The translations under genes were made by a program, and so were the position numbers. From Vicia villosa (taxonomy: Eukaryota > Streptophyta > Magnoliopsida > Fabales > Fabaceae): 64,000 nt of DNA. The notes under the pieces are model-generated. The model was not told the origin of the DNA, ran no database searches, and saw nothing but the letters and a program-made list of their open reading frames with translations. How positions within the stretch are numbered: the stretch's first letter is position 1; each line of letters opens with the position of its first letter. The stretch is from NCBI RefSeq assembly GCF_029867415.1, contig NC_081181.1:77720144-77784143 (forward strand). The letters run 5' to 3'. Below are positions 28,109 to 63,223 of this stretch, in pieces.

Positions 28109-28126
28109 GCATGCCTACAAAAAAAA

Positions 28127-29889: not shown

Positions 29890-29922
29890 TCTGGATCTTT
29901 AGGAACAAGTTACCTATAACTT

Positions 29923-29934
29923 GCTCTGATGCCA
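29923..29934 (-). other. Copia primer-binding site
   Basis: Sense strand TGGCATCAGAGC, two bases after the 5' LTR. It is one base from the initiator-Met complement TGGTATCAGAGC. Confidence 0.85.
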
Positions 29935-29936
29935 AA

Positions 29937-35480: not shown

Positions 35481-35584
35481 CACGATCAACATTCAAACAA
35501 CTACTTCTCAAACACTTCAGTCTCGACATCTGGATGGCATATTTAAGCCCATCTCCAACAAATATTCCTCAATACAAAAAAAAT

Positions 35585-36265: not shown

Positions 36266-36278
36266 GAACAGGGGCAGC
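36266..36278 (+). other. Ogre-2 polypurine tract
   Basis: GAACAGGGGCAGC directly precedes the 3' LTR start TGTCATACCCC. Confidence 0.85.
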
Positions 36279-37837: not shown

Positions 37838-38379
37838 TGTGGTGTCGTTTTATTTACCTCCCCGTTTCACTTGGGAGGACGGCACGCTAGACCCTTCACG
37901 CGAAATTTGGAAGGAGAATGCGCCCGTGGTGGGATGAATTTTGTTTCAGTTCTTCCTACGATATCACACGAACTTTCTTATTTGTCCTACGAATAGGAAA
38001 GGGAAAAAAAGATCTCAACTAAACCCTAGGAGTTTGCTAAGTGTGGGGATTTCACCTAGACTAGAAATTCTGGAGTTCGGGGGGTCGGTTATACATAGGG
38101 AAGTGTTTAAACACCCTACATATCTGTAGTACTCTACAGGAACCTTCTCTGTGTCATTTGTGTTTGTGTTTATTGCTAATGATTGGGAAAGTTTCTCCTT
38201 TGTTTTAGGAGAAGGAATTGAATTGATTAAAGAAAGACAGACAGACAAACAAACTGACTATTTTTGGTATTTTATTAGCTCGCTGAGATTCCTTGTGAAC
38301 CTCATGCCTACATATCCCTAGTGGAAGTCAGAGCTTAATGTAGTTCGGGGAACTAACTAGGGAAATTAATGTTTTTGGT

Positions 38380-39360
38380 GCCTTGCTTGAAGCTCAAGGT
38401 TGAAGCTTGGAATTAAATCTCTGTTTACAGTAAAGAGACATGAAATCATCTCTACAGAGAGGTATTTGTACTATTCTACCACAAACATTTAAAGGAGTGA
38501 CAGAATAACTGAATTCATTTCATTCAAGAGGGGGACCTTACTTGTGTATGTGCAAGTATACCAGTCAAATGCCTCTTAATTGAAAGAAAGATGCTCATCC
38601 AAATTATGGAAAGTTACCACATGACTGGGTTTTACTGCCAGCTCATGCCTTTCAAAATCCTAAATGGGAGACTTGATTGAAATTGAAATTGAAATTTGAA
38701 ATGTTTGTTTGTTTGAATGTGGTAGAGTAGTAAAAATATCTCTCTATAGAGATAAGCTATGTCTATCTACTGTATAAAAGATTTTGACTTTAGCTGGCTT
38801 GAATGAGGCCCAAGCTTGAGGCTTTTTGATTGATTAATTAATTATTATTTGACTCTGGGAGATGGCTCCACTGGGGGTTAATTACAGGGTATTTTTGTGT
38901 TCTGTACAAAGCCCAGAATTGAGGCTGACTCTATTTAAGGAGACTCTATTTGTGTGCCTTGTACAAAGCCCAAGGTTGTGGCTGACTGCTGAGAAAATTG
39001 GTTTTTTAGACTATGACTCTATTTCTGTGTGCCTTGTACAAAGCCCAAGGTTGTGGCTGACTCTAGCTAAGGAAAACATTATTTTCTGCCTTGTACAAAG
39101 CCCAAGGTTGTGGCAGACTCTTTTTTAAACTGAGTATGGATGACTCTATGGGGAAAAGATCCTAGATATTAGGAATCTTTGACACATGAAAATATGGTTT
39201 ATCTGCCTTGTACAAAGCCCAAGGTTGTGGCTACTGAATGATGAAGAACTCACTGGGGAGACTCTATTATCTGCCTTGTATAATGCCCAAGGTTGAGGCA
39301 GACTCTTGACAGGGGGGTTTTATTGTTTGGGTGCCTTGTATGAAGCCCAAGGTTGAGGCT
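38380..39360 (-). repeat. Ogre-1 LTR subrepeats with CCTTG-N9-CAAGG dyad
   Basis: About seven degenerate copies of GCCTTGTACAAAGCCCAAGG followed by TTGTGGC, spaced irregularly, mirrored in the other LTR (57700-58680). The five-base dyad is retained while the loop changes (TACAAAGCC, TATAATGCC, TATGAAGCC, CTTGAAGCT). Confidence 0.8.
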
Positions 39361-40286
39361 AACTGTTTTTATTGGTTTTGACTCTACTGAGGAGATTTTA
39401 TTTATTGAAAGACTGTTTTTCTTTGGAAGCTAACCCTTTCCAGGGATTTTGACTCAACTGGTGAATTTGTCTATTAAAAGACTGGTTTTATCATGTTTTT
39501 TTGGAGGCTGACCCTTTCCAGGGGTTTTGTCTCTTTTGGGGAAACTATCTCCTAAGAGAATGAATCTTTATTTATTTATTAATTGACTTTGGAGGCTAAC
39601 CCTTTCCAGGGATTTTGTTTAAAGTGATTGATTTGGGTAGCACTCTATTAATTATTAAAGGATGAAAAGATTGACAGAAAGATTATCTAGTGGAGACTTC
39701 TTGTTTAAAGCCCAAGATGAAGGCTGACTCAATGCTGAGGATGACCAAAACATGGATCCTAGACTCTACTAAGGAGGATTGATGAAGATAAGGGTGACAG
39801 AGACTGTCCATGTCTCTCATTCCAAAAGGTGTGCTCAATGTAAAATTGAGACAAACTTAGCTTGTTTAAAGTCTAGTTTAAATTGGAAGAAACTCACCAG
39901 GGTAGGCTAAAAGGTGACTAAAGACCTGTTCCTATGTTTATAAGAAACCTGATGGGTCCTTGTATACAAGCTCAAGAGGAAGCTGGAAATGCTTTTAAGA
40001 AGCCTGTGGGTCCTTGTACAAAGCCCAAGAGGAGGCTAATCGAGGGTCCTTGTTATAGCACAAGAGAAAGCTATGTGGTTTTGAACTTATTTTGGCTCTA
40101 AGCAAATGGGTAAGAGGTTTCACCGGGAATAATTCCTCTTTGGGTGGATGTGTCCTATTATTTGGATTCTAAGGTTTTTACCAAGATGTTTCACCGGGAA
40201 TAATTCATCTTGGGGGTTTGAACTACAAATCTCTAATTAGGAAAGAGCCTTCACCGGGAAGACATTCTCAATCCTAGGCCATATTC

Positions 40287-40318
<32 letters not shown>

Positions 40319-41200
40319 GTTTTAACTGTCCTAGGGTTTACACTCAAACGTAGTTCTAAACAAATATATATGCACAGTTTATATTTGACAGTAATTTAAA
40401 TAAAGACTGTAAATTGAAAGCTTGTAAAGCCTAACCTGGATGGAGTGGAGGCCTTTGAAGAAGTATGTACAGAGCCTCAACAGTATTTTTGTTGTTTTGT
40501 TGATAACAGTTGAATATATATGATAAACAGTTAATGTTTTTTTGAAAACAGAAGAAGTGAAGATGGACAAAGGTCACATAGGTATCTGAAGAGTTTCACC
40601 GGGAATAATGCCCTTCAAATACCAGAAGAATGTTTTGAAAACAGAAAGAAGATTTTGAAAATACAGTTTTGAAAACAAGCTAAGAAGAGAAGATTTTTGG
40701 GACTTACACTCTATTAGAGGCCCAGTACTTTACAGTACTGGTTATAACAGAAATTTGAAAATGATTTGGAATGATATGAGGTTTTGTTGTTTGAAAACCT
40801 TAATCATTTGATTTAATCAGAGATTGAAAACAATTTTGAGATTTGACAAAAGTCAACTTAATTAAAGTAAAAATAAAGATTTTTACTTAATTAAGACCTA
40901 AACAATTAGGGTTTTATCATAAACTTTATTTACAAAAATGATTAGGTTAAAATAAAGTGAAAATATGTATTAAGGTATTTAAGAAAACACCTAAAACATA
41001 CTATTTTAAACCTAATAAAAATATATGAAATAAATAATATTTTTATGATTTTTTTGATTATTCACAAAATAGATATGTTAAATAAAAAGTGTGTGAAAAA
41101 TGAAGTGAAAATGATTTAATTTGATAGGTTAAATAATTTTGTGAAGTTGTGAAGAAATTTAGTGTGAAAAGTGATAAAAAATATGATTTTGTCACCTAGA

Positions 41201-41254
41201 GGGGTTGAACTCACGCCCTTTAGGTCACATACCCAAAACCAAACCACTGGGCCA
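41201..41254 (-). other. tRNA-like A/B-box module 1 in the Ogre-1 LTR
   Basis: Sense strand A box TGGCCCAGTGG (41254-41244) and B box GAGTTCAACCCC (41212-41201). Copy in the other LTR at 60506-60559. Confidence 0.55.
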
Positions 41255-41355
41255 GCGCGCGCTCAGTGTTAGTAACTTGCCTTCAATTCATTATATTTTC
41301 AAACAAGTAGTAAAACCATGAAAAAATAAAAGACACAAAAAGTCTGGGGCGAGGG

Positions 41356-41417
41356 GGATTCGAACCCCAGACTTGTGGCATGATGAGACTAAAGGCGTAT
41401 CGGTGGCCACTGGGGCA
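41356..41417 (-). other. tRNA-like A/B-box module 2 in the Ogre-1 LTR
   Basis: Sense strand TGCCCCAGTGG (41417-41407) and a perfect B box GGTTCGAATCC (41366-41356) inside a CTGGGG...CCCCAG T-arm-like stem. Copy at 60661-60722. There is no acceptor or anticodon arm, so it is not a tRNA gene. Confidence 0.6.
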
Positions 41418-42366
41418 AGTTGTTCAGTCGTTTATAAAACGCATACCACTCAAAATAAAATAAACTTTGCCCTGAGATTTGAATTTTGCGCGCCACCACC
41501 ATCTTCGTCTTCAACCTCAAGCTCCATGAATTTGAATTTCTGAACTCACTCGTTTCTCAACCATTTGCCACGATGTAAACATGAAACTTGCTCTATATTC
41601 ACTCACGATTCTAAATATGTAACTAACATGAACTAATATTAACTACATCTAACTAATTTACCAGAAATCGTGAAGAACCCTAAAATTTCAAAATCAAATT
41701 AAATGACTATACTGAAAGATAAATGGATGATGATAGAGGGTTTTCAATCCTCTGATGATGCTGAACAAGATAGAATCGAGCTATTTCACAAAGAGTACTT
41801 AAATTAGAGAGGTGAAGTTCAGAAACTTACCTCTGAAAATGGAGGTCGTGAGGATGATTGAGAGCACCTGGGCTTGAATGAATGATCTCAATAGCTTTCC
41901 TGAGACTCAATGATGCTAACTGGATGTTTATTGTAGCCTGAATCCTTCTGAATTGTTCTATGGACCTCCCTCGATTTGAGCTTCAAGTGGACATGGAGGT
42001 TGTTGAATCCTTAGTTACAGATGAGCTGCAGCCATCTGGTTAGCTTCACTATGACCTGAGGAGTGTGTCTGGATGATTGGCTTGGCTTGAAACCTCCTGA
42101 ATCACTCCATGGACCTCCAACTGCAAATGCTCCAAAGTGAGAGCAACAATGGTGTTCCTCTACTTACAGAAGTGATCCAGGTGCTTGGATCACCTCAAAT
42201 GACCTCCCTTGAGGTGTTAGAATGCTCACTTCCCAAAGATAAGCTCTGGTTTGAAGAAAACGATTCTTCTTGCCAAAGAACTTTGAAAAACAATGAACAT
42301 GAGAAGAGAAAGAGAAAGCAAGGAATATGGTTGCTTTGGTGTGTTTTTGAATGAGGAATGCATCTG

Positions 42367-42374
42367 TATTTATA
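42367..42374 (-). promoter_or_regulatory. Ogre-1 TATA box (3' LTR copy)
   Basis: Sense strand TGCCTATAAATACAG, a strong plant TATA box. The functional 5' LTR copy is at 61671-61678. Confidence 0.75.
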
Positions 42375-43914
42375 GGCAAATGGATCAGTATAGCTGCAGA
42401 GGAGTGAGCTTCCTTAGTGAAGTTGATTTGGTTTCTTAGCCATGAAGTAATTCAAGGAATCTCCAAAATGCAATGATGCATTTTCGAGCCAGCTCTCCCA
42501 ACCATTGATCTTGCAGGATCTTAGGGAACATTTCTGATGTGTAGCAAGTTTCTATTGGCTTAGGAGAAGATTCCAATTGGTGAATCATTGCTTATCATAA
42601 ATTCTCAAAAGTAATGATTACATAATCACATGTTCTTGCTTTTGGGAATCTTCTTCAATCTTCATGCCATGGTGAAAATGAATGCATGGTATTGTTTCAG
42701 ACATGTTATGGGTCGTGTAGCATCCATCCATGAAGCAAAATGCACAAAATTGCAAAGTTCCAATTTGCACATGACCCATAATTTTACTTCATGAGGCCAA
42801 CTTTGAACAAGCATAACTCTTAGCTCAAATTGAATTTTGAGAAGGTTGAACACAATTTGGAAAGCCCTAAACATCTACTTCAAATCATTAGTTTATGTCT
42901 TCTTCAGAATCATTTGGGAAATTTGTGAAAAATGAGCCCAACGTTGGATGAAAACTAGGTTAAAACACTTAGAAAATTTTCTAAGTGTTTATGACCTAAA
43001 CTTCAAAATTTCCAAAACTTCATAAATGGTTGATCTTTTGAAAAAAGTTCCCTTGTAAGATGTTGTTTTATTTTGCAAGATCTACAACTTTCATGTTGGA
43101 AGTTTTTTGAGTTGTGTAGGTGAAGTTTTGAGTTCTCACCATGCCTTCAAAAACCCTAATTCCCGACTTTTCGCTCCTTGATGAATTTCTTTGAATTTCT
43201 TTGGCCAAATGACTTTGACATCCATATATTGATGGTATTGATCTTTGAAAGTCATTTTTTGACCAAAAACCTTAAAAGTCAATGATGATCCTTCACAGTT
43301 GACTTTTCCTGACAAAGTGAAATTTTGGGCCTTTGTGTAGAAACAGGATCTTCTCCTCAAATGAATGATGTAAATGGATTATATTGAGGTAGTAGAGATT
43401 CTTGAATCATGTCTTGAGTTTTGGATCCATGCCCTGATTAAAAGTCAACTATCTTGGTGAATTAGGTCAAAACCCTAATTTGTCGACCATTTGAAAATAA
43501 TGACTGTAGACTTTGAATTGAAGTGTGATGTCCAGTAGATCTTGTCATATGAGTTATTTGAAGATGATTGATGTCTTTGAATGATCCTCTGAGGTTTTTT
43601 AGGGTTTCCCAAATGTGATTCCTGATTTCAGTCCTTGATAGGCTCAAAACCCTAGTCTGGTGATCTGAGTAACCCTGTACTCAGATGACTAGATGTCTAA
43701 TCAATCATAGATGAGAAGAATGAAGTTCTTGAGCCCCATGATTGTATTAGAGACTAATCTTTGTATTGATTGATCCTTTGTCTGAGCTTTCTTGTCTTTG
43801 AGCATCCTCGATTAGATACCAGATGGAGGAATGATTGCTCTGGGTACCTGTCTTGTCCTGATGAAAATCCTGAAGATATGTCATCTCAGAGGGGTCAAAA
43901 ATTAGGGTATGACA

Positions 43915-43927
43915 GATGCCCCTATTT
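43915..43927 (-). other. Ogre-1 polypurine tract
   Basis: Sense AAATAGGGGCATC directly precedes the 3' LTR start TGTCATACC. Confidence 0.8.
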
Positions 43928-44279
43928 AAGTTTCTTTTATCCGGAGGGAGAGAGATTGATATCTCGATCTCTCCTGCGTAAAAGAGACTTAAATATCAAA
44001 GAATGCCCGAATTTTGGGCGCTCCTGAGATGTTGTAACTGATGTAGTCTTCGCATGACTTGATCCCATTGTCGCATTCGGCTGGGGATGAGGAGATAAAC
44101 TCCTGTAGAAATACTTGATGTGGATTCTGGTGAATGGATGGCAGTGTAGGATGCGCAATCCATCTTCTTTAACTAAGTGTTGATACTTAGAGAAAGGTAA
44201 ACAACTTCCCCTCGTTTCGGATGTCCATATCTCGAGACTGGTCCCAGTTGTGTTTGGACAATATCTCAGATAAAGAGAA

Positions 44280-44590
44280 AATTTCCAAAGGTTTGTTTCC
44301 TCGTCAAACTTCTTACCAGCACTTGGAGGTAAGATACCATTTGACGGTAATAAAGAAACTTCAAGGGTTTGTTTCCTCATCAAACTTCTTACCAGCACTT
44401 GGAGGTAAGATACCATTTGACGGTAATAAAGAAACTTCAAAGGTTTGTTTCCTCATCAAACTTCTCATCAGCACTTGGAGATGAGATGCCATTTGACGGT
44501 AGTAAAGAAACTTCAAAGGTTTGTTTCCTCATCAAACTTCTCATCAGCACTTGGAGATGAGATGCCATTTGACGGTTGTAAAGAAACTTC
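44280..44590 (-). repeat. 76-bp tandem array, four copies, with covarying hairpin
   Basis: The GTTTGTTTCC phrase starts at 44291, 44367, 44443 and 44519, an exact 76-bp period. Copies 1-2 have inner stem TCTTACC:GGTAAGA. Copies 3-4 have TCTCATC:GATGAGA. The loop AGCACTTGGA is constant. Confidence 0.95.
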
Positions 44591-44676
44591 ACCATCTTCC
44601 CTTTTGACTTGACGTCTTTGAAAGAATGTCATATGGCCTCATGATCTTTTGAGGGGCTAATGACTTTGTTTGAAGG

Positions 44677-45395
44677 CGGACGAACTGTTTTCGAGGTGAA
44701 AACTGCCATTCGTCGACTGATGCCTAGGGAATCAATGAACTGTTTTCCTAAGAGGAAAACTGCCATTCATCGACTCTGTGGGGAGTTAAACATCCCAGAA
44801 ACAGACAAACTGTTTGAAGAAACTTCCATTTGTCGATCTCTTGAGTATAGCAGACAAACTGTCTTTTCTTGGGAAAAGACTGCCATTTGCCAATTGCTAG
44901 GGGAACAAACTGTCTTCTGCTGAAAGAGACTGCCATTTGTCGACCCTGTCATGAAAGAAAGTGAGCAAACTGTCTTCTGCTGAAAGAGACTGCCATTTGC
45001 TGACTTTGTTATGATAGAAAATGAGCAAACTGTCTTCTGCTGAAAGAGACTGCCATTTGCTGACTTTGGGGAATCTTTAAATGAAACAAACCGTCTTCAC
45101 GAAGAAGGCCGCCATTCGTTATTTTTGCTTGAAAAAGTAAGTGAACTGTCTTCTGTTGAAAGAGACTGCCATTCACTGACTCCGTTGGGTATTTAACAGA
45201 CAAACTATCTTTTCTTTTGGGAAAGACTGCCATTTGTCGATTCCGCTGGTGATCATGAACTATCTTCTGGATGAAGACCATCATTCACTGATTCTGCTGG
45301 AGAATCATTTGTCAACCTGCTGGGAGATTCTTGACTGGGGAATTCCAAAAGTGAACAAACTATCTCTTTGGGGAAGAGATTACCATTTGTTGTCT
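44677..45395 (-). repeat. Hairpin array, twelve units of about 60 bp, with covarying stems
   Basis: Each unit has an outer stem, CT, an inner stem-loop, TGCCA, and the outer stem complement. Outer stems include GACGAA:TTCGTC (44679/44709), ATGAA:TTCAT (44735/44766), GACAAA:TTTGTC (44804/44829), AGCAAA:TTTGCT (44964/44996) and AGTGAA:TTCACT (45140/45172). The central units have a 60-bp period. Confidence 0.92.
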
Positions 45396-46235
45396 TGCTT
45401 AGGGAAATCCCTCGGCATGGATTGTTGTCTTGAAGGAAGAAGTTTCTCCAGAACTTGCAGGGGACACTTGAGTTCATGCCCCGATGACTCAGGCATTCTC
45501 ATGATCAAAGTCTGACTTGACTATGCAATTGTAATGTATGCATGAATATGATGACAAATAAAATGCAAAGTGAATGTGAATAGAATTGTCGCGGATGTAA
45601 AATCCTATGATACGACTTGAAATCCTTGTGGAGTAGAAGATGTCCTCTTCTTGTAGTTCGAACTCTGTTGGGAATATCTGGTTATCAGTTGTTCGCTGTC
45701 CGAAGTGAGTAATATGAATTAAAGTAAAGATCCGTCATCGGGAGATGTTCGCAAAGCGATCTCATGGGGAAATCTCGGTTCCCGGAGTCTCAACCGTTCT
45801 CGGAGCAACTGTTTGCATTCTTCCTATTGTTTGTAAACCTCAGAAAGAAATTTCACCTTTATTTTTTTGCAAGTAAATTCATTTTATTTTTATGAAAACA
45901 TTTGTTTCAAGAAATTGACTGTTTAAACTTAAAATGCCTTTCAAGAAACTGAATAAGACTAGATTGCAAAGGAAAGCACAAGGCTCAAATTATTATATAT
46001 GGAATGGTAATCAGCCAAATGCTTGATTCCATGGAGTATTTACAAAGTTGGAAATTGGTAATTTTCGGGAAAAGGGCTACGATGAAACGTGACGACCGTT
46101 ATCTCTCCCTTCCACTCCGAGCTGCGTTGTATCCGTGCTTCGTAGAAGATGACCTACTGCTGATGAATACTCCGCTATGGATTTTGGATGATCAAGTTTG
46201 TCCTGAACACAGTTACTTGCCATATATCCCTAACT

Positions 46236-46396
46236 TTTGCGTAAACTACCCCTTTCGGGTTTTAAGTCTACCGGGATTGATTAATATATTTTTTTATGTC
46301 TCTAATTTTTGCCTGAATCGCCCTTTCGGGTTTTCGATTCACCGAGACGCTCTTTTTTGCCTAAGTCGCTCTTTGCGAGTTTTCAACTTAGCGAGC
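46236..46396 (-). repeat. Three hairpin repeats just after the pol stop
   Basis: Units with outer stems GTAAACT:AGTCTAC (46241/46265), TGAATCG:CGATTCA (46314/46335) and CTAAGT:ACTTAG (46361/46386). Inner stems are ACCC:GGGT, CCC:GGG and CTC:GAG. About 60-70 bp apart. Confidence 0.8.
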
Positions 46397-46411
46397 TTTT
46401 CTTTTGTTTAT

Positions 46412-49400
46412 TTAGGCGAAGTATTTCTTGACTGCGTCGACGTTTACAGGACAGGTGAATTCTTCTCCATCCATAGTCGTGAGTATTAAGGCTCCTCCTG
46501 AGAAAGCTCTCTTGACCACGTAGGGGCCGTCATAATTGGGAGTCCATTTCCCTCTCGAATCTGTGAGAAAAGATTGAATCTTTTTGAGTACAAGGTCGCC
46601 TTCTTTGATTGTGCGAGGTCGAGCCTTTTTGTCGAAAGCTTTCTTCATTCTTTGTTGATATAGCTATCCGTGGCATAAAGCTGTCATGCGCTTTTCTTCG
46701 ATTAAGTTCAATTCATCGAATCTGCTTTGACACCACTCGGCTTCTGTTAATTTTGCCTCCATCAAAACTCTCATTGATGGAATCTCAACCTCTATAGGTA
46801 GGACTGCCTCCATGCCATATACAAGGGAGAAAGGAGTTGCTCCAGTCGAAGTACGTACTGATGTACGGTAACCATGAAGAGCATGCAGGAGCATTTCATG
46901 CCAATCCTTGTAAGTGATGACCATCTTCTGAATGATTTTCTTGATGTTTTTGTTAGCTGCTTCTACAACTCCATTCATCTTTGGTCTGTAAGGAGATGAG
47001 TTGTGATGTTCAATCTTGAATTCTTCACAAAGCTCCTTCATCATTTTGTTATTCAAATTTGACCCATTGTCAGTGATTATCTTGCTAGGAATGCCATAGC
47101 GACAGATGATGTGATTCTTGATAAACCTGACGACAACTTGTCTTGTAACGTTTGCATATGAAGCTGCTTCAACCCATTTGGTGAAATAGTTTATGGCTAC
47201 CAAGATGAAGCGATGTCCGTTGGACGCTTTTGGCTCGATCATTCCAATCATGTCGATTCCCCACATGGAGAAAGGCCAAGGGGAAGAGAGTATGTTGAGA
47301 AGAGATGGTGGCACATGAATTCTATCGGCGTAGATCTGGCATTTGTGACACCTCTTTGCGTACTGGTAGCAATCTGACTCCATTGTCAGCCAATAATATC
47401 CTGCTCTCAGTATTTTCCTTGCCATGGTATGCCCATTGGTGTGAGTACCAAAGGAACCTTCATGTATTTCTTTCATGAGTATTTCTGCTTCTTTTCTGTC
47501 AACGCATCTGAGCAGAACCATGTCGAAGTTTCTCTTGTACAGAACATCTTCATTCAGGAAGAATCTACAAGCTAACTTTCTCAAAGTCTTTCTATCTTTC
47601 TTTGATGCTCCAAGAGGGTACTCTTGCTTCTGAAGAAAGTTCTTGATGTCGTGATACCATGGTTTGTCGTCGATGATTGCTTCTACTGTAAAAACATGAG
47701 CGGGCCTATCCAGGCGCCTAACATCGATCTGAGGAATGTCATTCCAATGATTTATCCTAATCATGGAAGAGAGTGTGGCTAATGCATCAGCCAAGTTGTT
47801 TTCTTCACGAGGGATGTGATGAAAATCTACCCTGTCGAAGAATGGTAACAATCTTCTTGCGTAGTCTTTGTAAGGAATTAGCCCTAGTTGGCGTGTTTCC
47901 CATTCTCCTTTGATTTGATTAATGACCAAAGCAGAATCTCCGTATACATCCAAGTGTTTGATTCTTAGATCCATGGCTTCTTCGAGACCCATGATACAAG
48001 CTTCATATTCGGCCTCATTGTTTGTGCATTTGAAAGTTAATCTGGCGGTAAATGGAATATGGGTACCCTGAGGTGTAACAATGATTGCCCCAATTCCTCG
48101 TCCATAAGCATTGACAGCTCCGTCAAAGATTAAGCCCCACTGGGATCCTATCTCAGGTCCTTCGTCTGGTAGCGGCTCATCGTAATCTTTCATCTTGAGG
48201 TACATGACGTCCTCGTCCGGAAAGTCGAAACTGGTTGATTCATGACCATTGAGTGGGTGGTGAGCCAGGTGCTCAGCTAGAATGCTTCCTTTCACGGCTT
48301 TCTGTGCGTGATACTCAATGTCATATTCTGATAATAACATCTGCCAACGGGCAATCCTCCCAGTTAAGGCAGGCTTCTCAAAGATGTACTTGATTGGATC
48401 CATATGAGAGATCAAACAAGTAGTATGTCGAATCATGTACTGGCGGAGACGCTTGGCAGCCCAGGCCAAAGCACAACACGACTTCTCGAGCATGGAGTAG
48501 CGGGATTCACAGTCAGTGAATTTCTTGCTTAGGTAGTAAATGGCATGCTCTTTTCTCTTTGTCTCGTCTTGCTGTCCAAGGACACAACCCATGGAATCTT
48601 CTAAGACGGTTAAGTACATTATCAAAGGTCTTCCTTCCACTGGAGGAGACAAGATGGGTGGTTCGAGCAGATATTCCTTAATGCTGTCGAACGCTTTCTG
48701 ACAATCGTCTGTCCAGACGCAACTTTGATTTTTCCGTAGAAGTTTCAAAATAGGAGCGCAAGTTGCTGTCATGAGATATATGAATCTCGAGATGTAATTC
48801 AGACGTCCAAGAAATCCTCTAACTTGTTTCTCGGTTCTGGGCGAAGGCATTTCTTGAATTGCCTTGACTTTGTCTGGATCTACTTCAATTCCTCGTTTGC
48901 TGACAATGAAACCAAGGAGTTTTCCTGAGTAGACACCAAAGGTGCACTTGTTGGGATTCAGGCGAAGCTGAAACTTCCGTAAGCGTTGAAATAACTTTGT
49001 CAGATTCTGTATGTGATCTTCTTCATTTTCTGATTTGGCAATCATGTCGTCCACATAGACTTCCACTTCTTTATGCATCATATCATGGAAAAGCGTAGTC
49101 ATGGCTCTTTGATAAGTTGCCCCTGCGTTCTTTAGTCCAAAAGGCATAACCCGATAGCAGAACGTGCCCCAGGGGGTGATGAAAGCTGTTTTTTCCATGT
49201 CTTCAGGTGCCATTTTGATTTGGTTGTATCCTGAAACTCCGTCCATGAACGAGAAAACTTTGGATTTTGCTGTACTGTCTACCAACATATCAATATGTGG
49301 TAAAGGAAAATCATCCTTAGGGCTAGCTTTGTTCAAATCTCTGTAGTCGACGGACATGCGGACTTTTCCATCTTTCTTAGGAACGGGAACAATGTTAGCT

Positions 49401-49840
49401 AACCACTGAGGGTTTTCTGAAGTGACGACGAAACCTGCGTTGATCTGCTTTTGAACTTCCTCTTTGATTTTCATGGCCATCTCCGGATGAGTTCTTCTCA
49501 ATTTTTGCTTGATCGGAGGGTATTCTGCTTTTAACGGCAAGTGATGCTCCACTATACTGGTATCCAACCCTGGCATATCTTGATAAGACCAAGCGAAGAC
49601 ATCTGAGAATTCTTTGAGCAGCTGTATCAAACTCTCTCTGATCTCTGAACTGAGCGAAGCTCCAATCTTAACCTCTTTTCTGTTTCCATCGGACCCAAGG
49701 TTAATGATCTCTAGAGGCTCAGTGTATGGCTGAATGGCCTCTTCCTTTTGTTGAAGTAATCGTGAAATTTCCTTTGATATTTCTTCGTCTTCTTCTTCCT
49801 CTGCCTCGAATACAGGAAACTCAAAGCTTGGAGAAGTCAT
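46412..49840 (-). pseudogene. Ogre-1 pol: RT, RNase H, second RNase H, integrase; one in-frame stop
   Basis: ATG at 49840; after the predicted splice the frame opens at 49877. RT covers about residues 100-330 with YVDD at 262-265. A first RNase H covers about 395-520. A second, Tat-type RNase H covers 566-692 (D574, E611, D635, D685). The integrase has an HHCC-like region near 793-835 and D863, D924 and E960 (D-x35-E). TAG at 46666-46664 interrupts the C-terminal integrase domain. The frame continues unshifted to 46412 (DKKARPRTIKEGDLVLKK, NYDGPYVVKRAF). Relatives have Gln here, so CAG to TAG is likely. The protein lacks only its last about 80 residues, which may still abolish integration. 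Confidence 0.93.
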
Positions 49841-49877
49841 ACGGTCGCACGTTTCAACGGGGTATTTTATGATTAAT

Positions 49878-50389
49878 CTGCATATGTGTGATAAGTTTTA
49901 TTTAGACAACGAGGGAAGACTCGGTGTATGCAGTTAATAATTTTTTGATGTTTTTTTAAGGGTGTTTTTTAGGATTACCAATTTCCGAAAAAAGAAAAGG
50001 AAAAACTAAACGAAGGAACAGAATGACATTCTTATTTATGGACAGTCATTTCTTGAAACAAAGACCCTATAAAACAAAACTCTATTGCTTTGGGCGAAGC
50101 AAAGAGGGACATTTTCCTAAGAAATAGTAAAATGCAAAGCCCTATGAAACATCTCTTCACCCTGGGCTATGGTGAGAGGACAAAATAACGGTGAAAATTC
50201 CTACTTAGGAGTGCGAACAACAGTTGAAACTTCAACAGCTGTCCAGTAGTGGCGAACCCCATTGTGCACTAAGTAATCTGGAACCTTAGGTTAAGCTGGC
50301 CTGTGGTAGGTCTTGATTTACCAACCACTGTCTTTGCAACACTCAGACGATCTTCTTCTACTTCAGCAGACTGAGCGGTGTGAGCATAC
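49878..50389 (-). other. Predicted Ogre-1 intron between protease and RT
   Basis: Donor AATAG|GTATGC (GT at 50389-50388) and acceptor ATATGCAG|ATTA (AG at 49879-49878), 512 bp. Splicing joins the gag-pro and pol frames in phase, leaving only the TGA at 50412-50410 in the exon. An intron at this position is an established Ogre feature. The exact sites are my inference. Confidence 0.7.
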
Positions 50390-50409
50390 CTATTTCCAAG
50401 TGGAGTATG

Positions 50410-53400
50410 TCAGTTTTTCTTTTGAGGAAACTTCCAATCTTCTGAATGGAGAGACTCGTTGTCGGAGACACTTTCGAGATCAACCTCTTCTGTATTTTGG
50501 TCTTGCTCTTCTCCCAAGATGGCATTGACTAGATATGTGAACTCTAGATCCGTAGCCTCGGAAGGTGACTTGGGGATATAATCCTCAATGATGACTTCAC
50601 CAGATGCTGATGATGAATAGCAAGGGTTATACATCTCTTTTGGCTGAGAGAGGTACTCATAGTCAATGTTCCATCCAGTTGGAACAATGTCTTCAAGAGA
50701 GATTCTTGAACTTTCAGGAGCGGAGTATTTCACCATGTAATCGAATTTTCCGCTTGGTTCTCCTAATGTATCCCAAGTCTCTTCGGGGATAGGAGGAACT
50801 TCTTCTGATGAACCATGACTTCTGGTGGTGAAGCTGTCAGTAACTTCATCACTGCTTGGTTGAGTCTTACTTTCAAATCCTTTAGTCGGATAACAGCAAA
50901 GTGGTTCAGACTCTGGTAGGGAGATATATCCTGCTTTGTTAAGATAGGATAACCATTCCTCTTCATCGGTGTTTTCCGTACCAATGGTATTGACTGTTTG
51001 TTGAACAGGTTGAAGAAAACCTCCACTGCAGAAAGTTTCTTGAATAGGGAGAACTACCTCAATCCCTGGAACAGCTTTTGATGATGTTGGAAAGAATCCA
51101 ACTCCTGTTCTATTCTTGTTGTTGGTAGGAATATTAATGTGCCCCCAACCACTGGTAGTGCCATCCTTTACAACTTGGATTGCATCTTTGTATGAAGAGA
51201 TAGACGCTGCTTTCTCCTTTCCTTTGTCTAAGGAAAGTGCTTGAAATTTAGTTCCAACAACTTCTTTTGGTTCTATGTCGGAGAATGATGACAGGTTGCT
51301 GACGATCAGAGCTCGTTCTCCACATACGGTTACCAATTTGTCATTTCTTATGAACTTCAGTTTCTGATGAAGCGTTGAAGTAATTGCCCCAGCCTCATGA
51401 ATCCATGGGCGACCTAGCAAACAACTGTATTGTGCTGAAATTTAGTTCCAACAACTTCTTTTGGTTCTATGTCGGAGAATGATGACAGGTTGCTGACGAT
51501 CAGAGCTCGTTCTCCACATACGGTTACCAATTTGTCATTTCTTATGAACTTCAGTTTCTGATGAAGCGTTGAAGTAATTGCCCCAGCCTCATGAATCCAT
51601 GGGCGACCTAGCAAACAACTGTATTGTGCTGGAATGTCCATAACTTGGAAAGTGATTTTGAACGTCTGAGGTCCAATAGTTATGGGAAGATCCACTTCTC
51701 CGAAAACTGACTTTCTTGATCCATCAAATGCTTTGACGATGACATGACTTTTTCTCAATGGGTAATCTTCGAAAGATAATCTTGATAATGTTGATTTAGG
51801 CATGTTGTTGAGAGAGGATCCATTGTCTATTAGGACTCCTGTGAGTGTATCACCCATGCAGCCAACTGAGATGTGAAGTGAAAGATTGTGGTCCACTCCT
51901 TCTTCAGGAAGATCTTTGTCACAGAAACTTAGGTTAGTTCCGGCGGAGATGATGGCAACGATGTTGTTGAATTGGCTTATAGTAACACTTGGTTCTACAA
52001 AAGCTTGTTCCAAAACTTTCTGTAGAGCTTCCCTATGAGCTTCAGAACTCAATAGCAGGGAAAGAACAGAAATCCTAGACGGAGTATGTAGTAATTGGTC
52101 TACAATGTTGTATTCGCTCCTCTGGATTAACTTCAAGATCTCATCATTTTCTTTCGCTTGAACAGCATTGGTCGGATGATTATCTTGCCTATGTGGTACT
52201 TCCCCCGAAGGTTTCTCCACATTTTCTGTTGTTCTGTTGAAGACTCGTCCACTTCTGGTGACTCGACTAACATCAGCAATGTTGACCACAGACGGTAATG
52301 GTATTTCCTTACCATTTTCAATGAATGTAGCGTTGTACTTGTATGGTATAGACTTGCTGGACTCATACGGTACAGGACCCGGTAAGTAGATGACTAGTGG
52401 CGCAATTGCCGTCTTCCTGCTATCATACTTAACTTGCATTGGTTCAACTTGATTAATTTGAGGAGATACAGTAAAGACTTCATCATCTTCTCTGTTGGCA
52501 AGAACAGTAATGGTATTGTCATCCATCAGCTTTTGAATGTCGTTGCGAACACGCAAACATCCTCGTGAATTTCTTCGACAGGTTTCGCATCTACTGTAAG
52601 CGTGGAAATCAGTTCCAAAGTAGGCAAGTCCATTTAAAGTTTTATGGAACCTGACTACCGATCCTTTAAGGTCTTCAACTTTGTAGATTTTGTATTCTCC
52701 TGGACATCCTTGAACCATGTTGATGTCATGTTGAGTTCTGACTCGGATATGTTGAATCCATCCTAAGTCCATTTGTTCTTGTAATGCAGCTTGAACTACG
52801 GCACATCCTTGATTATTCTTTGGACAAATTTCACATGTGAAGTAGTTGTGAGGTGGTACATGACCGTACCCAGCTTGTTTAGCGTGCATCTTGACAAGAT
52901 TTTCCCCTATCTGACGAATGTCGTAGATTTGAATGACGTTGGGGTGTTGATCTATCAGATTTACTGAAGCTTCTTTATGCTGCGGCAAAGGATTTGCTTG
53001 GACGTTTGGATTAGTATCTTTGAAGGATAGCATTCCGCTCTTCACTAATTGTTGGACGTCAATCTTAAAAGGGAAACAGTTCTCAATATTGTGACCTGGT
53101 GCCCCCTGATGATAGGGACAAGATTGGTCAGCCTTATACCATGGTGAGGAACTGTTTGTAGGATTTGGAGGACTCCTTGTCTGAATGAGTCCTTTTGCCA
53201 GTAATGTTGGAAACAATTCTGCATACGGCATTGGTATGGGGTCAAAGGCAGGATACCTTGGAGCCCGATTGTTGTAATTTGGAGGTCGAACCTGTTGCTG
53301 AGGTTGCTGCGACCTTTGTTGCATTTGTTGTTGCGAAACCTGAGGTTGATAAGCTGGCGCTGAGTTAACAACCGGAGTTATTGTTGCAACTTGAGGTTGG

Positions 53401-54599
53401 AATTTCTTCTTGATTTTGTGCAAGACATTGCTGACATCTTGATCCTTTTTCTTCTGGAAAGAACTTCCATACTTCCTTGGACCAGTAGAAGATTCTGGTT
53501 CTTTGTTCAAGCGACCTTCCCGAACCGCTTCTTCTAAACGTACACCCATGTTTACCATCTCGGTAAAGTCACTTGGTGCACTTGCGACCATTCGTCCGTA
53601 GTAAAATGGACTCAAAGTTTTGAGATAGATTTTTGTCATTTCTTTCTCTTCAAGTGGTGGACAAATTTGAGCAGCAACTTCACGCCATCTCTGAGCGTAT
53701 TCCTTGAAGCTTTCTCTATCCTTTTGAGTCATGGCCCGGAGTTGATCTCTGTCGGGAGCCATATCCAGATTGTACTTATACTGTTTGACGAAGGCCTCTC
53801 CGAGGTCTCGAAAAGTACGAATCTCTGAACTATCCAAGTTCATGTACCATTTGAGTGCAGCACCAGTCAGGCTGTCTTGAAAATAATGAATGAGCAATTG
53901 TTGATTATCAGTCTGAGTTGACATTCTTCGAGCGTACATCACAAGATGACTTTGTGGGCATGAATTCCCTTTGTACTTCTCGAACTCTGGTACTTTAAAT
54001 TTGTGAGGGATCTTAACATTTGGAACCAGACAGAGGTCTGCAGCATTCTTTCCAAATAGATCTTGTCCTCGGAGAGTCTTGAGTTCCTTCTGCATTTGCA
54101 GAAACTGTTCTTGGAATTCGTCCAATCTTTCATACACGCCAGGATCCTCACTTGGAGCGTGATGATATACTTGTCCACCCTGCGGGGGAAAAGTATGCAT
54201 AATCGGTCGTGGAGAAGCCATGACAGCAGATCTTGGAATCTCAGCGTTCTGTTGTGTGAAACCCATTGCCGTTGCTCTTGGAACTTCAATTTCCAGAGGT
54301 TTGTAACCCTCTGGTGGACGCATATCCATGGTGACTTTTGGAGCTTCAGAAGCTGGAGGTATGTACCCTTCTGGAGTAAAGTTATACGGCATGCCCCAAG
54401 GTCGATCAGGCGGCATGGTATACTGAGGAATAGGAGTAGAAACAATCTCAGAAACCACAGTCCTTTGTGGTTCTTCTGGCGTTGGTCGATTCTGCGCAAC
54501 AACCAGGGCTTCTACCATACTATTGAGTCTTTCAACAGTACCTTTGAGAGTATTAATCTCTTCTCTGAGTTCTTCATTCTCTTGCTCAAAGTCTTCCAT
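50410..54599 (-). pseudogene. Ogre-1 gag-protease, frameshifted by a 194-bp duplication
   Basis: ATG at 54599 opens a frame of 1061 residues to 51414. It has an N-terminal coiled coil (1-35), a retrotransposon gag core (about 180-365, LKWYMNLDSSEIRTFRDLGE), a Gln-rich stretch (415-440), a C-x2-H-x5-H-x4-C zinc-like motif (494-508), two C-x2-C-x6-C motifs, and an aspartic protease with LIDNGSSLN (Asp 925; DNG in place of DTG/DSG). A tandem duplication (51242-51437 and 51436-51631) shifts the frame right after the protease. The original frame resumes from 51420 to 50410 with an acidic tail, ending at TGA 50412-50410 just before the predicted intron donor. Confidence 0.93.
51242..51631 (-). repeat. 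194-bp perfect tandem duplication within gag-pro
   Basis: The segment from TGAAATTTAG to TATTGTGCTG occurs twice in direct succession with no mismatch seen. 194 is not divisible by three. The flanks share only a few bases (GTGCT). Confidence 0.95.
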
Positions 54600-54888: not shown

Positions 54889-56325
54889 CTAAAACTTTGA
54901 TGATAAGCCGACTTCACGTTCTAACATCTTCTTTTGTTTCTTGAGCTGAGCGTTCTCTGACGTGAGCTGATCGATGATCCAGGAAGCAGGAGGGATATGA
55001 TGAGAAAGTGATGATTGTGTCACTTGTCGATCGAGAACTTCAAGTAACTCATCCTTCCTTCTTAGGATGCTTTGAATCTCAACATTTTCCGTGTTGACAA
55101 TTCGATACTTGTTCCTCCAAGCATTCCTTTCTTGGCATACTTTGTTTAATGCCTCTTGCAGTTTTTCAACATCGGTGGAGAAAAGGTAAATTGGTTCCCT
55201 TAGGGGAATAGGTTCTTGATGTTGATATGGCATCCTGAGCTTGAATGCTCTGACGCGTACCCATTGAAGGTAAGGATCCAGGGAGATGCAAAGATGTTTT
55301 CCTAACAATCTTCTCCCTTTGCTGTGAACAAGACGCCAGGCTTGAACAATTTCCTTCTTCAGCATGTTTCCATGATCGTCGATGTTCTTGAAGAACAGAC
55401 CCTCCAATTGGATGTTACTTGGTATATTTTTCATGGGATAGCCGTATTGACGACGGGCTAAAGCTGGATTGTAACTGATCCCTCCCTTAGTTCCAATAAG
55501 GGGTACGTTGGGAAAACTTCCGCAACTGAAGATGATCTTGGTTTCGTCGTTGTCAGGACTACACCAATCAATGTCTGTATGAGTGAGAGACATGATTTTT
55601 TGTGACCAGTAAAGGCCATCCCTCATATTCCAGAAAGTGCTAGACTTTGGCATGTGTGAAACGAACCATTCGTATAACAACGGTACGCAGCATGTGATTA
55701 ATCCTCCTCGCTGCAGGTTTCTTGAATGCACAGAGTGATAAGCATCCGCAAGCAAGGTTGGAACCGGATTTCCAATCAAGAAGATCTTAATTGCGTTGAT
55801 GTCGACGAAATCGTTAATGTTAGGAAACAAAAACAATCCGTAGATAAGCAAAGCCAAAATTTCCTCGAAAGCGCTCATATCTTGGATGCTGACGAAGTAC
55901 CGAGCTTGGTCAAACAGGAATTTGGAGGGCAATCCTTGAATTCCTCCTCTACTCACCATATGAGTTCTGATGTCGACTACGTTCAAAGGAGTAGTTGCAG
56001 CAATGATAATGTCGTCAGGATTCTTTTCCAAACCGGAGTACGGATCTTGCGCGTACACGGGTATTCCAATCAGACGAGAGTACTCTTCCAACGTAGGCAT
56101 GAGCTGATAATCTGGAAAGGTGAAACAGTGATACGTTGGATCGTAAAACTGTACCAAGGTGGGAAGGATCCCATCCACCATGTTGGTATTGAGCAAAGGC
56201 AGAAGTTTTCCATACTTCTCCTTGAAAGCCTTGGGGTTGACCACCAGTTTTCCGAGCTTTCCCAGTTCCTCGACCTGGGGAATCTTGAAGGTGTATTTCC
56301 TAGCTCTCTTTCTTCCATAATCCAT
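54889..56325 (-). CDS. Ogre ORF1 (plant-mobile-domain/DUF7745-like)
   Basis: ATG at 56325 (MDYGRKRARKYTFKIP...) gives 478 residues; the frame is open further upstream but without ATG. The globular region carries KLGKLVVNPKAFKEKYGKLL, FYDPTYHCFTFPDYQLMPTL, EEYSRLIGIPVY, LLIYGLFLFPNINDFVD and GLITCCVPLLYEWFVSHMP, followed by a Leu/Glu-rich coiled coil (about 385-475). ORF1 upstream of gag defines Ogre. Similar PMD-like proteins occur in host genomes and other transposons, and the function is unknown. It is the only Ogre-1 ORF with no disruption. Confidence 0.9.
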   Translation of the reverse strand: MDYGRKRARKYTFKIPQVEELGKLGKLVVNPKAFKEKYGKLLPLLNTNMVDGILPTLVQFYDPTYHCFTFPDYQLMPTLEEYSRLIGIPVYAQDPYSGLEKNPDDIIIAATTPLNVVDIRTHMVSRGGIQGLPSKFLFDQARYFVSIQDMSAFEEILALLIYGLFLFPNINDFVDINAIKIFLIGNPVPTLLADAYHSVHSRNLQRGGLITCCVPLLYEWFVSHMPKSSTFWNMRDGLYWSQKIMSLTHTDIDWCSPDNDETKIIFSCGSFPNVPLIGTKGGISYNPALARRQYGYPMKNIPSNIQLEGLFFKNIDDHGNMLKKEIVQAWRLVHSKGRRLLGKHLCISLDPYLQWVRVRAFKLRMPYQHQEPIPLREPIYLFSTDVEKLQEALNKVCQERNAWRNKYRIVNTENVEIQSILRRKDELLEVLDRQVTQSSLSHHIPPASWIIDQLTSENAQLKKQKKMLEREVGLSSKF

Positions 56326-57126
56326 GGTATAGATCCTTAAGTCCTTTCTCCGTTTCTCTCTTTCTATGAAGTTCAAAACGTTCGTTATTTAGTTTCCTTG
56401 AAAAACGACTCGAAAAAGACTCTTTTTTTTTTTGTTTTTAGTTGTTATTAATGAATGATGCATGAATGCATGAATGCACACACAAGAGTTTTAAAACAAA
56501 CATGGCGTTGAAGGGTATAGTGGTCATGAAGTCAAAACGCAAACCCCGCCCCAATGGTAAACTAAGGTTAAGGATTTTTGTACCTGTAGAACGGGTTCTA
56601 GGGGTCTCAGAGTTTTTGCTCAACCTTAAAGATACGTTGACTGGTATCTATAAGAGAGTTTCCTCTGAGTGTAGTATCTGCGTGACAATTACTTCCGTAA
56701 TCACCGCTCTACGTCCTAAAAAAGGCTTTAAGTGGGGTTAATGTGTTTCTAGGTCCTCCTGGTACAAATCAGTCTCGGAATGCAGTGGCGCAGTTAATCA
56801 CAACCAGCCAGGCAAATCCCAAGAGTAGACTTGGAAACCAAGATTAGAGGGTCTTCACCGGGAAGACATCCTCCATCCTATCTTATGTTGCACTCAAATC
56901 CGGGTATAGGATTTCTCACCACAAGGGGGAATCAAGCCCTTTCCCGATACAGAATAAACAAAATAAACAAATATATATGCAGCAAACACATGATATGACA
57001 CAGAGGTTAGGCAGGACCTCTCTTGTTTTGAGGGGGAATTTGGCATCCCTAATTCCTCAATGGGGCTGGACCAGCAACAGGTCAACCATTGGTTTGGATG
57101 AAAAACCAAGGTTTTTAACACTTATA
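56326..57126 (-). other. Ogre-1 leader between PBS and ORF1
   Basis: Non-coding, about 800 bp. No further motif recognised. Confidence 0.75.
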
Positions 57127-57144
57127 TCCCCAACAGAGTCGCCA
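57127..57144 (-). other. Ogre-1 primer-binding site (tRNA-Arg type)
   Basis: Sense strand TGGCGACTCTGTTGGGGA, six bases (GAAAAA) after the 5' LTR end. Confidence 0.92.
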
Positions 57145-57150
57145 TTTTTC

Positions 57151-60100
57151 TGTGGTGTCGTTTTATTTACCTCCCCGTTTCACTTGGGAGGACGGCACGC
57201 TAGACCCTTCACGCGAAATTTGGAAGGAGAATGCGCCCGTGGTGGGATGAATTTTGTTTCAGTTCTTCCTACGATATCACACGAACTTTCTTATTTGTCC
57301 TACGAATAGGAAAGGGAAAAAAAGATCTCAACTAAACCCTAGGAGTTTGCTAAGTGTGGGGATTTCACCTAGACTAGAAATTCTAGAGTTTGGGGGGTCG
57401 GTTATACATAGGGAAGTGTTTAAACACCCTACATATCTGTAGTACTCTACAGGAACCTTCTCTGTGTCATTTGTGTTTGTGTTTATTGCTAATGATTGGG
57501 AAAGTTTCTCCTTTGTTTTAGGAGAAGGAATTGAATTGATTAAAGAAAGACAGACAGACAAACAAACTGACTATTTTTGGTATTTTATTAGCTCGCTGAG
57601 ATTCCTTGTGAACCTCATGCCTACATATCCCTAGTGGAAGTCAGAGTCTAATGTAGTTCGGGGAACTAACTAGGGAAATTAATGTTTTTGGTGCCTTGCT
57701 TGAAGCTCAAGGTTGAAGCTTGGAATTAAATCTCTGTTTACAGTAAAGAGACATGAAATCATCTCTACAGAGAGGTATTTGTACTATTCTACCACAAACA
57801 TTTAAAGGAGTGACAGAATAACTGAATTCATTTCATTCAAGAGGGGGACCTTACTTGTGTATGTGCAAGTATACCAGTCAAATGCCTCTTAAATGAAAGA
57901 AAGATGCTCATCCAAATTAGGGAAAGTTACCACATGTCTGGGTTTTACTGCCAGCTCATGCCTTTCAAAATCCTAAATGGGAGACTTGATTGAAATTGAA
58001 ATTGAAATTTGAAATGTTTGTTTGTTTGAATGTGGTAGAGTAGTAAAAATATCTCTCTATAGAGATAAGCTATGTCTATCTACTGTATAAAAGATTTTGA
58101 CTTTAGCTGGCTTGAATGAGGCCCAAGCTTGAGGCTTTTTGATTGATTAATTAATTATTATTTGACTCTGGGAGATGGCTCCACTGGGGGTTAATTACAG
58201 GGTATTTTTGTGTTCTGTACAAAGCCCAGAATTGAGGCTGACTCTATTTAAGGAGACTCTATTTGTGTGCCTTGTACAAAGCCCAAGGTTGTGGCTGACT
58301 GCTGAGAAAATTGGTTTTTTAGACTATGACTCTATTTTTGTGTGCCTTGTACAAAGCCCAAGGTTGTGGCTGACTCTAGCTCAGGAAAACATTATTTTCT
58401 GCCTTGTACAAAGCCCAAGGTTGTGGCAGACTCTTTTTTAAACTGAGTATGGATGACTCTATGGGGAAAAGATCCTAGATATTAGGAATCTTTGACACAT
58501 GAAAATATGGTTTATCTACCTTGTACAAAGCCCAAGGTTGTGGCTACTGAATGATGAAGAACTCACTGGGGAGACTCTATTATCTGCCTTGTATAATGCC
58601 CAAGGTTGAGGCAGACTCTTGACAGGGGGGTTTTATTGTTTGGGTGCCTTGTATGAAGCCCAAGGTTGAGGCTAACTGTTTTTATTGGTTTTGACTCTAC
58701 TGAGGAGATTTTATTTATTGAAAGACTGTTTTTCTTTGGAAGCTAACCCTTTCTAGGGATTTTGACTCAGCTGGTGAATTTGTCTATTAAAAGACTGGTT
58801 TTATCATGTTTTTTTGGAGGCTGACCCTTTCCAGGGGTTTTGTCTCTTTTGGGGAAACTATCTCCTAAGAGAATGAATCTTTATTTATTTATTAATTGAC
58901 TTTGGAGGCTAACCCTTTCCAGGGATTTTGTTTAAAGTGATTGATTTGGGTAGCACTCCATTAATTATTAAAGGATGAAAAGATTGGCAGAAAGATTATC
59001 TAGTGGAGACTTCTTGTTTAAAGTCCAAAATGAAGGCTGACTCAATGCTGAGGATGACCAAAACATGGATCCTAGACTCTACTAAGGAGGATTGATGAAG
59101 ATAAGGGTGACAGAGACTGTCCATGTCTCTCATTCCAAAAGGTGTGCTCAATGTAAAATTGAGACAAACTTAGCTTGTTTAAAGTCTAGTTTAAATTGGA
59201 AGAAACTCACCAGGGTAGGCTAAAAGGTGACTAAAGACCTGTTCCTATGTTTATAAGAAACCTGATGGGTCCTTGTATACAAGCTCAAGAGGAAGCTGGA
59301 AATGCTTTTAAGAAGCCTGTGGGTCCTTGTACAAAGCCCAAGAGAAGGCTAATCGAGGGTCCTTGTTATAGCACAAGAGAAAGCTATGTGGTTTTGAACT
59401 TATTTTGGCTCTAAGCAAATGGGTAAGAGGTTTCACCGGGAATAATTCCTCTTTGGGTGGATGTGTCCTATTATTTGGATTCTAAGGTTTTTACCAAGAT
59501 GTTTCACCGGGAATAATTCATCTTGGGGGTTTGAACTACAGATCTCTAATTAGGAAAGAGCCTTCACCGGGAAGACATTCTCAATCCTAGGCCATATTCC
59601 TATAATATATATATATATATATAGTTTTAACTGTCCTAGGGTTTACACTCAAACGTAGTTCTAAACAAATATATATGCACAATTTATATTTGACAGTAAT
59701 TTAAATAAAGACTGTAAATTGAAAGCTTGTAAAGCCTAACCTGGATGGAGTGGAGGCCTTTGAAGAAGTATGTACAGAGCCTCAACAGTATTTTTGTTGT
59801 TTTGTTGATAACAGTTGAATATATATGATAAACAGTTAATGTTTTTTTGAAAACAGAAGAAGTGAAGATGGACAAAGGTCACATAGGTATCTGAAGAGTT
59901 TCACCGGGAATAATGCCCTTCAAATACCAGAAGAATGTTTTGAAAACAGAAAGAAGATTTTGAAAATACAGTTTTGAAAACAAGCTAAGAAGAGAAGATT
60001 TTTGGGACTTACACTCTATTAGAGGCCCAGTACTTTACAGTACTGGTTATAACAGAAATTTGAAAATGATTTGGAATGATATGAGGTTTTGTTGTTTGAA

Positions 60101-63100: not shown

Positions 63101-63218
63101 TTTGAGCATCCTCGATTAGATACCAGATGGAGGAATGACTGCTCTGGGTACCTGTCTTGTCCTGATGAAAATCCTGAAGATATAACATCTCAGGGGGGTC
63201 AAAAATTAGGGTATGACA
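57151..63218 (-). repeat. Ogre-1 5' LTR
   Basis: 6068 bp. Sense strand runs TGTCATACCC...CACCACA. TATA box at 61671-61678, A/B-box modules at 60506-60559 and 60661-60722. The (TA)n near 59605 is shorter than in the 3' LTR. Confidence 0.95.
61671..61678 (-). promoter_or_regulatory. Ogre-1 TATA box (5' LTR, functional copy)
   Basis: Sense strand CCTATAAATACAGATGC. The position would give transcription of R-U5 and the whole internal region. The start site is not determined. Confidence 0.75.
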
Positions 63219-63223
63219 GTCAT

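Follow-up and report, generated by a model that had tools for sequence, protein, structure and literature searches.

The 64,000-nucleotide stretch of Vicia villosa DNA analysed here (contig NC_081181.1, positions 77,720,144 to 77,784,143; referred to as the window, with position 1 as its first letter) carries on its minus strand an Ogre element, which is a Ty3-type long terminal repeat (LTR) retrotransposon. Between the pol gene and the 3' LTR of this element lies an array of related hairpins on the transcribed (minus) strand and, given this position, the array falls into the 3' untranslated region (UTR) of the transcript. A first-pass annotation had described twelve hairpins, and all twelve are present where it had placed them, together with the stem pairs that it quoted; the count itself has to be raised to 16, with four further hairpins located in a tandem array of 76-base-pair (bp) units. 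These 16 related hairpins in Ogre genomic RNA have probably been kept by selection for pairing in the transcribed strand. The hairpins were delimited by unit alignment and a covariance model, and the tandem array by Tandem Repeats Finder:

44286..44591, minus strand: 76-bp tandem array, four units, 95% matches
44303..44345, minus strand: hairpin Ua of the 76-bp array
44379..44421, minus strand: hairpin Ub of the 76-bp array
44455..44497, minus strand: hairpin Uc of the 76-bp array
44531..44573, minus strand: hairpin Ud of the 76-bp array
44679..44714, minus strand: hairpin U01
44734..44771, minus strand: hairpin U02
44804..44834, minus strand: hairpin U03, short inner stem, loop strand UGGAA
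44853..44891, minus strand: hairpin U04
44904..44941, minus strand: hairpin U05
44964..45001, minus strand: hairpin U06
45024..45061, minus strand: hairpin U07
45085..45120, minus strand: hairpin U08
45140..45177, minus strand: hairpin U09
45199..45238, minus strand: hairpin U10
45254..45289, minus strand: hairpin U11, degenerate loop and outermost pair
45354..45391, minus strand: hairpin U12

Read along the transcribed strand, each unit consists of an outer stem of 6 pairs, a UGGCA-like strand, an inner stem of 4-8 pairs, an apical loop, the returning inner stem, an AG-like strand and the returning outer stem. In 16/16 units, a U.G pair joins the base that begins the 5' loop strand to the G of the 3' strand, and two invariant A-U pairs adjoin it. 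With the outer stem closed by this U.G pair, what is left as internal loop is in most units GGCA opposite A. Every hairpin has one small internal loop, and it is asymmetric in 16/16 units. Departures from GGCA are GGUA in U12, Ua and Ub, GGAA in U03, GGCG with G opposite in U08, and GAUG in U11. The units to which weaker pairing had been ascribed lie at 44904-45061, and their spacing is 60 and not 45 nucleotides (nt).

When the covariance model was run over both strands of the window, the 16 units from which it had been built were recovered with E-values from 1.2e-11 to 6.7e-7, and nothing beyond them scored better than E=0.24. Two tandem arrays near the LTR of another element (32440-32657 and 35036-36009) gave no match to the hairpin model up to E 10. 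A comparison with Rfam 15 yielded no match at the gathering score, and the single sub-threshold match in 43900-46700 does not fall within the array. The sequence AAUG, which includes a start codon, is invariant in every hairpin (44303-45391), mostly within AAAUGGC or GAAUGGC, a good start-codon context in plants. No consistent reading frame was found behind the AAUG of the hairpins. A coding role of the array was considered and rejected: the sense frames are all broken by stops and the repeats run through all three frames, which makes a cause of the constraint at the protein level unlikely.

Covariation between the arms of the hairpins

The evidence for selected pairing comes from compensatory change. 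Within the window, 14 distinct units with 12 pairs and 167 pair cells were compared with 500 column shuffles. Paired cells amount to 97.0% (shuffled mean 80.0), double-change cells to 34 (9.8 in shuffles) and the covariation score to 0.618 (0.266 in shuffles), and none of these three values was reached in any shuffle (0/500 each). Double changes occur in all nine variable pairs, as they do in 5/500 shuffles, and the other three pairs never vary. Sliding the partners by 1-3 columns reduces pairing to 31-54%, and RNAalifold arrives at the same fold when no structure is supplied. A tree-based null, in which the number of changes per column is fixed and the changes are placed randomly on a tree of the units, gave 0/2000 simulations that reach the observed values on each of two trees and for four measures; this null is home-made and R-scape-like, not R-scape itself. 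Compensatory change, which the first-pass annotation had proposed and for which it had named a phylogenetic null as the check, is therefore backed by column shuffles and by covariation in excess of such a null, as well as by the translations of other copies described below. Closely related units illustrate the pattern: U06 and U09 differ at 5/43 columns, four of which make up two compensatory pairs, and U05 and U06 differ at three columns, two of which form one such pair. Ub and Uc differ at five columns; in four of these the differences amount to double changes at two pairs of their 7-pair inner stem, and chance placement results in two or more double-changed pairs in 0.4% of trials.

Other copies were reached through predicted proteins whose open frames had been translated through homologous arrays in three frames. 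They number 83, of which 28 were obtained at E<=1 and 55 via the frame through the 76-bp array; protein-guided and pattern scans of viral contigs, plus a plasmid scan, found no relatives as DNA, and a scan of genome contigs yielded a single distant contig from a bacterial bin, which was left aside. In these comparisons the residues are the data, the bases being deduced through the codons of the window, and units that depart from the residue patterns are left uncounted. A general back-translation of all units is mostly ambiguous, and frame-specific tables were used instead. For the 76-bp units, L/S (U/C) against K/E (A/G) at inner pair 4 gives rows of 30, 6 and 1, 24, and P/S against G/D at inner pair 6 gives 24, 3 and 1, 33, each over 61 units; another frame, with Y/H against V,I/M, gives 48, 2, 3 and 11 over 64 sites. 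In the larger array, the table for outer pair 2 reads 14, 0 and 0, 11 in one frame (25/28 units, omitting two Y-I units and one D-S unit, the latter paired at this position) and 10, 1 and 0, 11 in another (22/23 units, omitting one W-V unit, which is G.U). At outer pairs 3-4 of the larger array, the relatives have 30 A/T-C and 3 V-H.

The same relatives bear on single positions of the window. U03 orthologues fit UGGC (A at the position in 11/11 in one frame, W-Q in 2/2 in another), those of U11 have N-G in 4/4 matched, and those of U08 have S after NG in 4/4. The readable orthologues of these three units thus fit the consensus, and their loop departures look private to this copy. Outer pair 3 of U02 is U-A in the window; 7/7 relatives have R...V, which is C-G if R is a CGN codon.

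The number of changes was estimated on a flanking-sequence tree of 39 copies, namely 38 of the 83 relatives and the window. It places 12 and 12 changes at the two sites of inner pair 4 and 10 and 6 at those of inner pair 6, and Watson-Crick matching exceeds independence, being equalled in 6/5000 (pair 4) and 9/5000 (pair 6) simulations. These data address one rival explanation, by which whole blocks from a small number of ancestral unit types were duplicated and recombined, so that the coupling of the arms would be inherited history and not repeated compensation. Such a history would account for the predominance of three residue combinations (SSDE 22, LPGK 20 and LSDK 8, together 50/61 units), for the correlation of non-cognate sites (0.48-0.69) and, with no requirement other than a lack of recombination, for the missing outer combination H-T. 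However, sites close to each other should then correlate more strongly than distant ones and the reverse is seen, which counts against linked blocks: cognate partners about 20 nt apart correlate at 0.78 and 0.87, and sites 2 nt apart at 0.61 and 0.55 (difference 0.24, bootstrap 0.11-0.38). The 6-12 changes per site implied by the flank tree and the double changes at nine different pairs within the window also speak against block history, which is considered the least probable of the explanations discussed here.

Transcribed strand and folding stability

Mismatches in the outer stems are distributed unevenly between the strands. Across 96 cells in the window, the transcribed strand has 8 G.U, 0 A.C and 1 other mismatch, and the 8 wobbles correspond, by eye, to about six independent changes. 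The A.C mismatches on the plus strand that had been reported at 44853, 45085 and 45255 are indeed G.U pairs on the minus strand, and G.U pairs are also present at 44734 and 44904 and in all but one of the four 76-bp units. The other mismatch is one A.G, at the outermost pair of U11 (45254). At outer pair 1 in the relatives (32 sites), A-U occurs 12 times, G-C 7 times, G.U 13 times and A.C 0 times, where one of the 13 G.U pairs depends on S read as AGY and the 13 to 0 ratio may reflect a small number of events. The sense strand is the more probable folded strand.

This asymmetry is relevant for a second rival explanation, in which arm-to-arm copying, through template switching in replication or reverse transcription, keeps the hairpins complementary as DNA palindromes and RNA is not under selection. 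Gene conversion of the arms had already been named as an alternative in the first-pass annotation. Arm copying produces double changes, the hairpins sit in a repeat-rich region of variable copy number, and folding energies are alike on both strands, all of which would be expected. Yet it does not explain an internal loop that is asymmetric in every unit, nor would it respect three invariant loop-adjacent pairs while pairs further out vary. In addition, single-pair steps via U.G occur (LPGE 4, LSDE 2 and LSGK 1 of 61 units), and the outer wobbles lean towards the transcribed strand (8 G.U and 0 A.C). Arm copying is accordingly disfavoured and quite improbable as a rival to selection for RNA pairing.

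Several results weigh against such selection. In the window, further pair types are no more numerous than in shuffles (233/500), and the nine cognate variable pairs, with ranks of 2-76 among 601 column pairs, are not always at the top; with U01-U12 only, seven cognate variable pairs rank 2-130 of 534. Ranks that are high but not uniquely high are expected, because the rows are related. Among the relatives, the two Y-I units are unpaired at outer pair 2, and back-translation of outer pair 1 in the 12-unit class results in 3 decided misses and 2 decided pairs. If wobbles are counted as paired on the flank tree, pair 4 gives a weaker signal (48/5000) and pair 6 falls short of significance (837/5000). 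In the inner stems there are 6 wobbles and 5 C.A in 107 cells of the window and 7 U.G and 4 C.A units of 61 in the relatives. Folding energy barely favours the sense strand (mean -9.1 versus -8.5 kcal/mol), 4/16 units fold more stably on the opposite strand and a further one has the same energy on both, and in sense, with +-60 nt of context, the mean pair probability is <0.15 for the outer stems of U07, U08, U11 and Uc. A search for a thermodynamic outlier found ordinary stability, with a mean sense z-score of -0.65 for 36 array windows and -0.27 for 2132 windows. Finally, the minimum-energy fold of the 1131-nt stretch retains 9/16 outer and 9/16 inner stems, and the four 76-bp units fold otherwise in it, with none of their stems kept. 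The case for the hairpins rests on covariation, without support from stability.

The host element and its surroundings

The Ogre element and its parts are arranged as follows:

57151..63218, minus strand: 5' LTR, direct repeat of 37838-43914, TG...CA ends
57128..57144, minus strand: primer binding site (TGGCGACTCTGTTGGGG), just inside the 5' LTR, read by eye
54889..56376, minus strand: extra open reading frame (ORF) upstream of gag, DUF7745 (Pfam PF24924, E 6e-130)
51414..54599, minus strand: gag (Pfam Retrotrans_gag and Ty3_capsid)
49841..50409, minus strand: stop-rich gap where Ogre elements are known to have an intron, each of the three frames containing stops
46664..49840, minus strand: pol with reverse transcriptase, RNase H, second RNase H and integrase (Pfam)
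37838..43914, minus strand: 3' LTR, directly preceded by a purine-rich tract, 43915 to about 43930

The two LTRs align with 38 mismatches in 6069 columns, and the aligned stretches extend one base more, to 63219 and 43915. With about 6.07 kb, they are very long and are combined with a short target duplication (GTCAT, 5 bp, at 37833-37837 and 63219-63223), as in Ogre elements. The primer binding site presumably matches tRNA-Arg. It also coincides exactly with a weak match to the covariance model (57100-57150, E 2.6), with outer arms GAAAAA and UUUUUC. Mimicry of the primer binding site by the hairpins was set aside, since the site needs UGG anyway and, by eye, has a competing hairpin inside it.

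In pol, RT_RNaseH is assigned to residues 404-506, RVT_3 to 580-689 and rve to 856-953; the second RNase H thus stands between RNase H and integrase, an arrangement reported as common to Ogre and Retand (PMC6317226). The best named matches of pol are from legumes, with identities of 84% in Vicia villosa, 81% in Trifolium repens and 79% in Medicago truncatula among 120 matches listed of 6201. Between pol and the second ORF (50410-51420), the stop-rich gap measures 569 bp and lies where the Ogre intron is reported, the same source describing two ORFs parted by a partly spliced intron (PMC6317226). A near-perfect 194-bp tandem duplication at 51237-51635, which is not a multiple of three, covers the junction between the end of the gag ORF (51414-54599) and the start of the next ORF (50410-51420), and a stop is located ahead of the conserved end of pol (46664); together they suggest that this copy is inactive. 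From the hairpins to the 3' LTR (43937-44285), one sense frame is open here and in dozens of relatives, a count that is biased by a search that itself proceeded by open frame.

The Ogre element is inserted in sequence that is repeated elsewhere in the window (9945-19284, 36273-37851 and 63261-64000) and that seems to be an LTR of a further large element carrying internal duplications. A Ty1/copia element at 21386-31257, with LTRs 99.2% identical, apparently lies within that outer element. A perfect 95-bp tandem duplication is found at 63651-63843.

Possible roles of the array

The design of each unit, a near-constant asymmetric loop between two stems whose sequence appears free provided that pairing holds, is what a binding site would look like. 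The constant loop may be a protein-binding site that is read in helical frame, and its sixteen copies would add avidity, making the array a putative multivalent handle on the genomic RNA. Export of intron-containing RNA from the nucleus is tentatively put forward as the most likely single use, by analogy, since the intron of Ogre is partly spliced and the export elements of retroviruses occupy the same place. The constitutive transport element of Mason-Pfizer monkey virus is likewise a 3' untranslated RNA element of a retroelement with intron-containing RNA and is recognised through internal loops in its stem (PMC4377836); the Ogre array shares the 3' untranslated location and stems with a conserved internal loop. 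In contrast to this element, the array is made up of separate hairpins, 16 in number, and a single small asymmetric loop is present in each. A second comparison is offered by the MER11-derived element of a primate retrovirus, a non-coding region from the last gene to the polypurine tract with export activity and a predicted strong structure (PMC11379458). That element belongs to an animal retrovirus and its export was demonstrated by reporter; for the array, export is a proposal. We know of no clear motif shared between the two.

Encapsidation by Gag comes next and is considered slightly less likely than export. The first-pass annotation had likewise offered packaging, stability and 3'-end function as conjecture. 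The hairpins might instead form a 3' structure that serves the stability or the translation of the RNA, such as a decay barrier or a 3' translation enhancer, with no part in export or packaging. This rival draws on the 3' untranslated position and on the same covariation, and nothing specific speaks against it, except that a mechanical decay barrier is less likely because the stems are ordinarily stable; overall, it is judged to be somewhat less probable even than arm copying.

A further property of the region is its variable unit number. The order U04-U03-U02-U01 recurs in the relatives, its three neighbour pairs being present in 10, 9 and 8 of 83 proteins. The 76-bp units number four in the window and, by pattern, 0 to 4 in the 16/83 relatives that can be read from both flanks (2 units in ten of them, 1 in four, 0 in one and 4 in one); one more protein, P0193, has five, readable from one side. 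By eye, the units between U11 and U04 vary as well, from one in P0131 and three in P0132 to six in the window. The array thus resembles the hypervariable 3' UTR tandem repeats of Tat/Ogre elements, which lie between pol and the 3' LTR and vary in number between copies (Macas et al., 2009, as cited in PMC7004042). Hairpins selected for pairing could cause pausing and template switching during reverse transcription, by which the number of units would vary, and a stable U04-U01 order beside 76-bp units of variable number fits such switching. The most inclusive proposal, a multi-copy, protein-bound element for RNA export or sorting that solves the export of intron-containing RNA and, through template switching, gives rise to hypervariability and seeds satellites, is unlikely to hold in full, although more probable than arm copying. 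It would, to our knowledge, be the first such element in a plant retrotransposon.

As in the array described here, the known Tat/Ogre repeats share the position in the element, are arranged in tandem, vary in unit and number, and are said to seed satellite DNA (PMC7004042). Unlike them as described, the units here are covarying hairpins with a constant loop; the words 'hairpin' and 'secondary structure' do not appear in the main text of PMC7004042, and the palindromes treated in PMC6911290 are those at insertion sites. A literature search on Ogre and hairpins, at the level of titles and the beginnings of abstracts, returned no description of these hairpins, which is not proof of absence. That Ogre has hypervariable 3' repeats and that these are linked to satellites is already known; the covarying hairpin nature of the units suggests a new aspect of them.

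Much of the difference in genome size within the legume tribe Fabeae is due to Ogre elements. Their 3' repeats are also described as the source of most satellites of Lathyrus sativus (PMC7004042). If the hairpins are indeed selected at the RNA level, these 3' repeats would be working parts of the element instead of junk spacers. Two questions would then gain an answer open to testing: by what means a plant retrotransposon copes with a genome that contains an intron, and what makes this region vary so rapidly.
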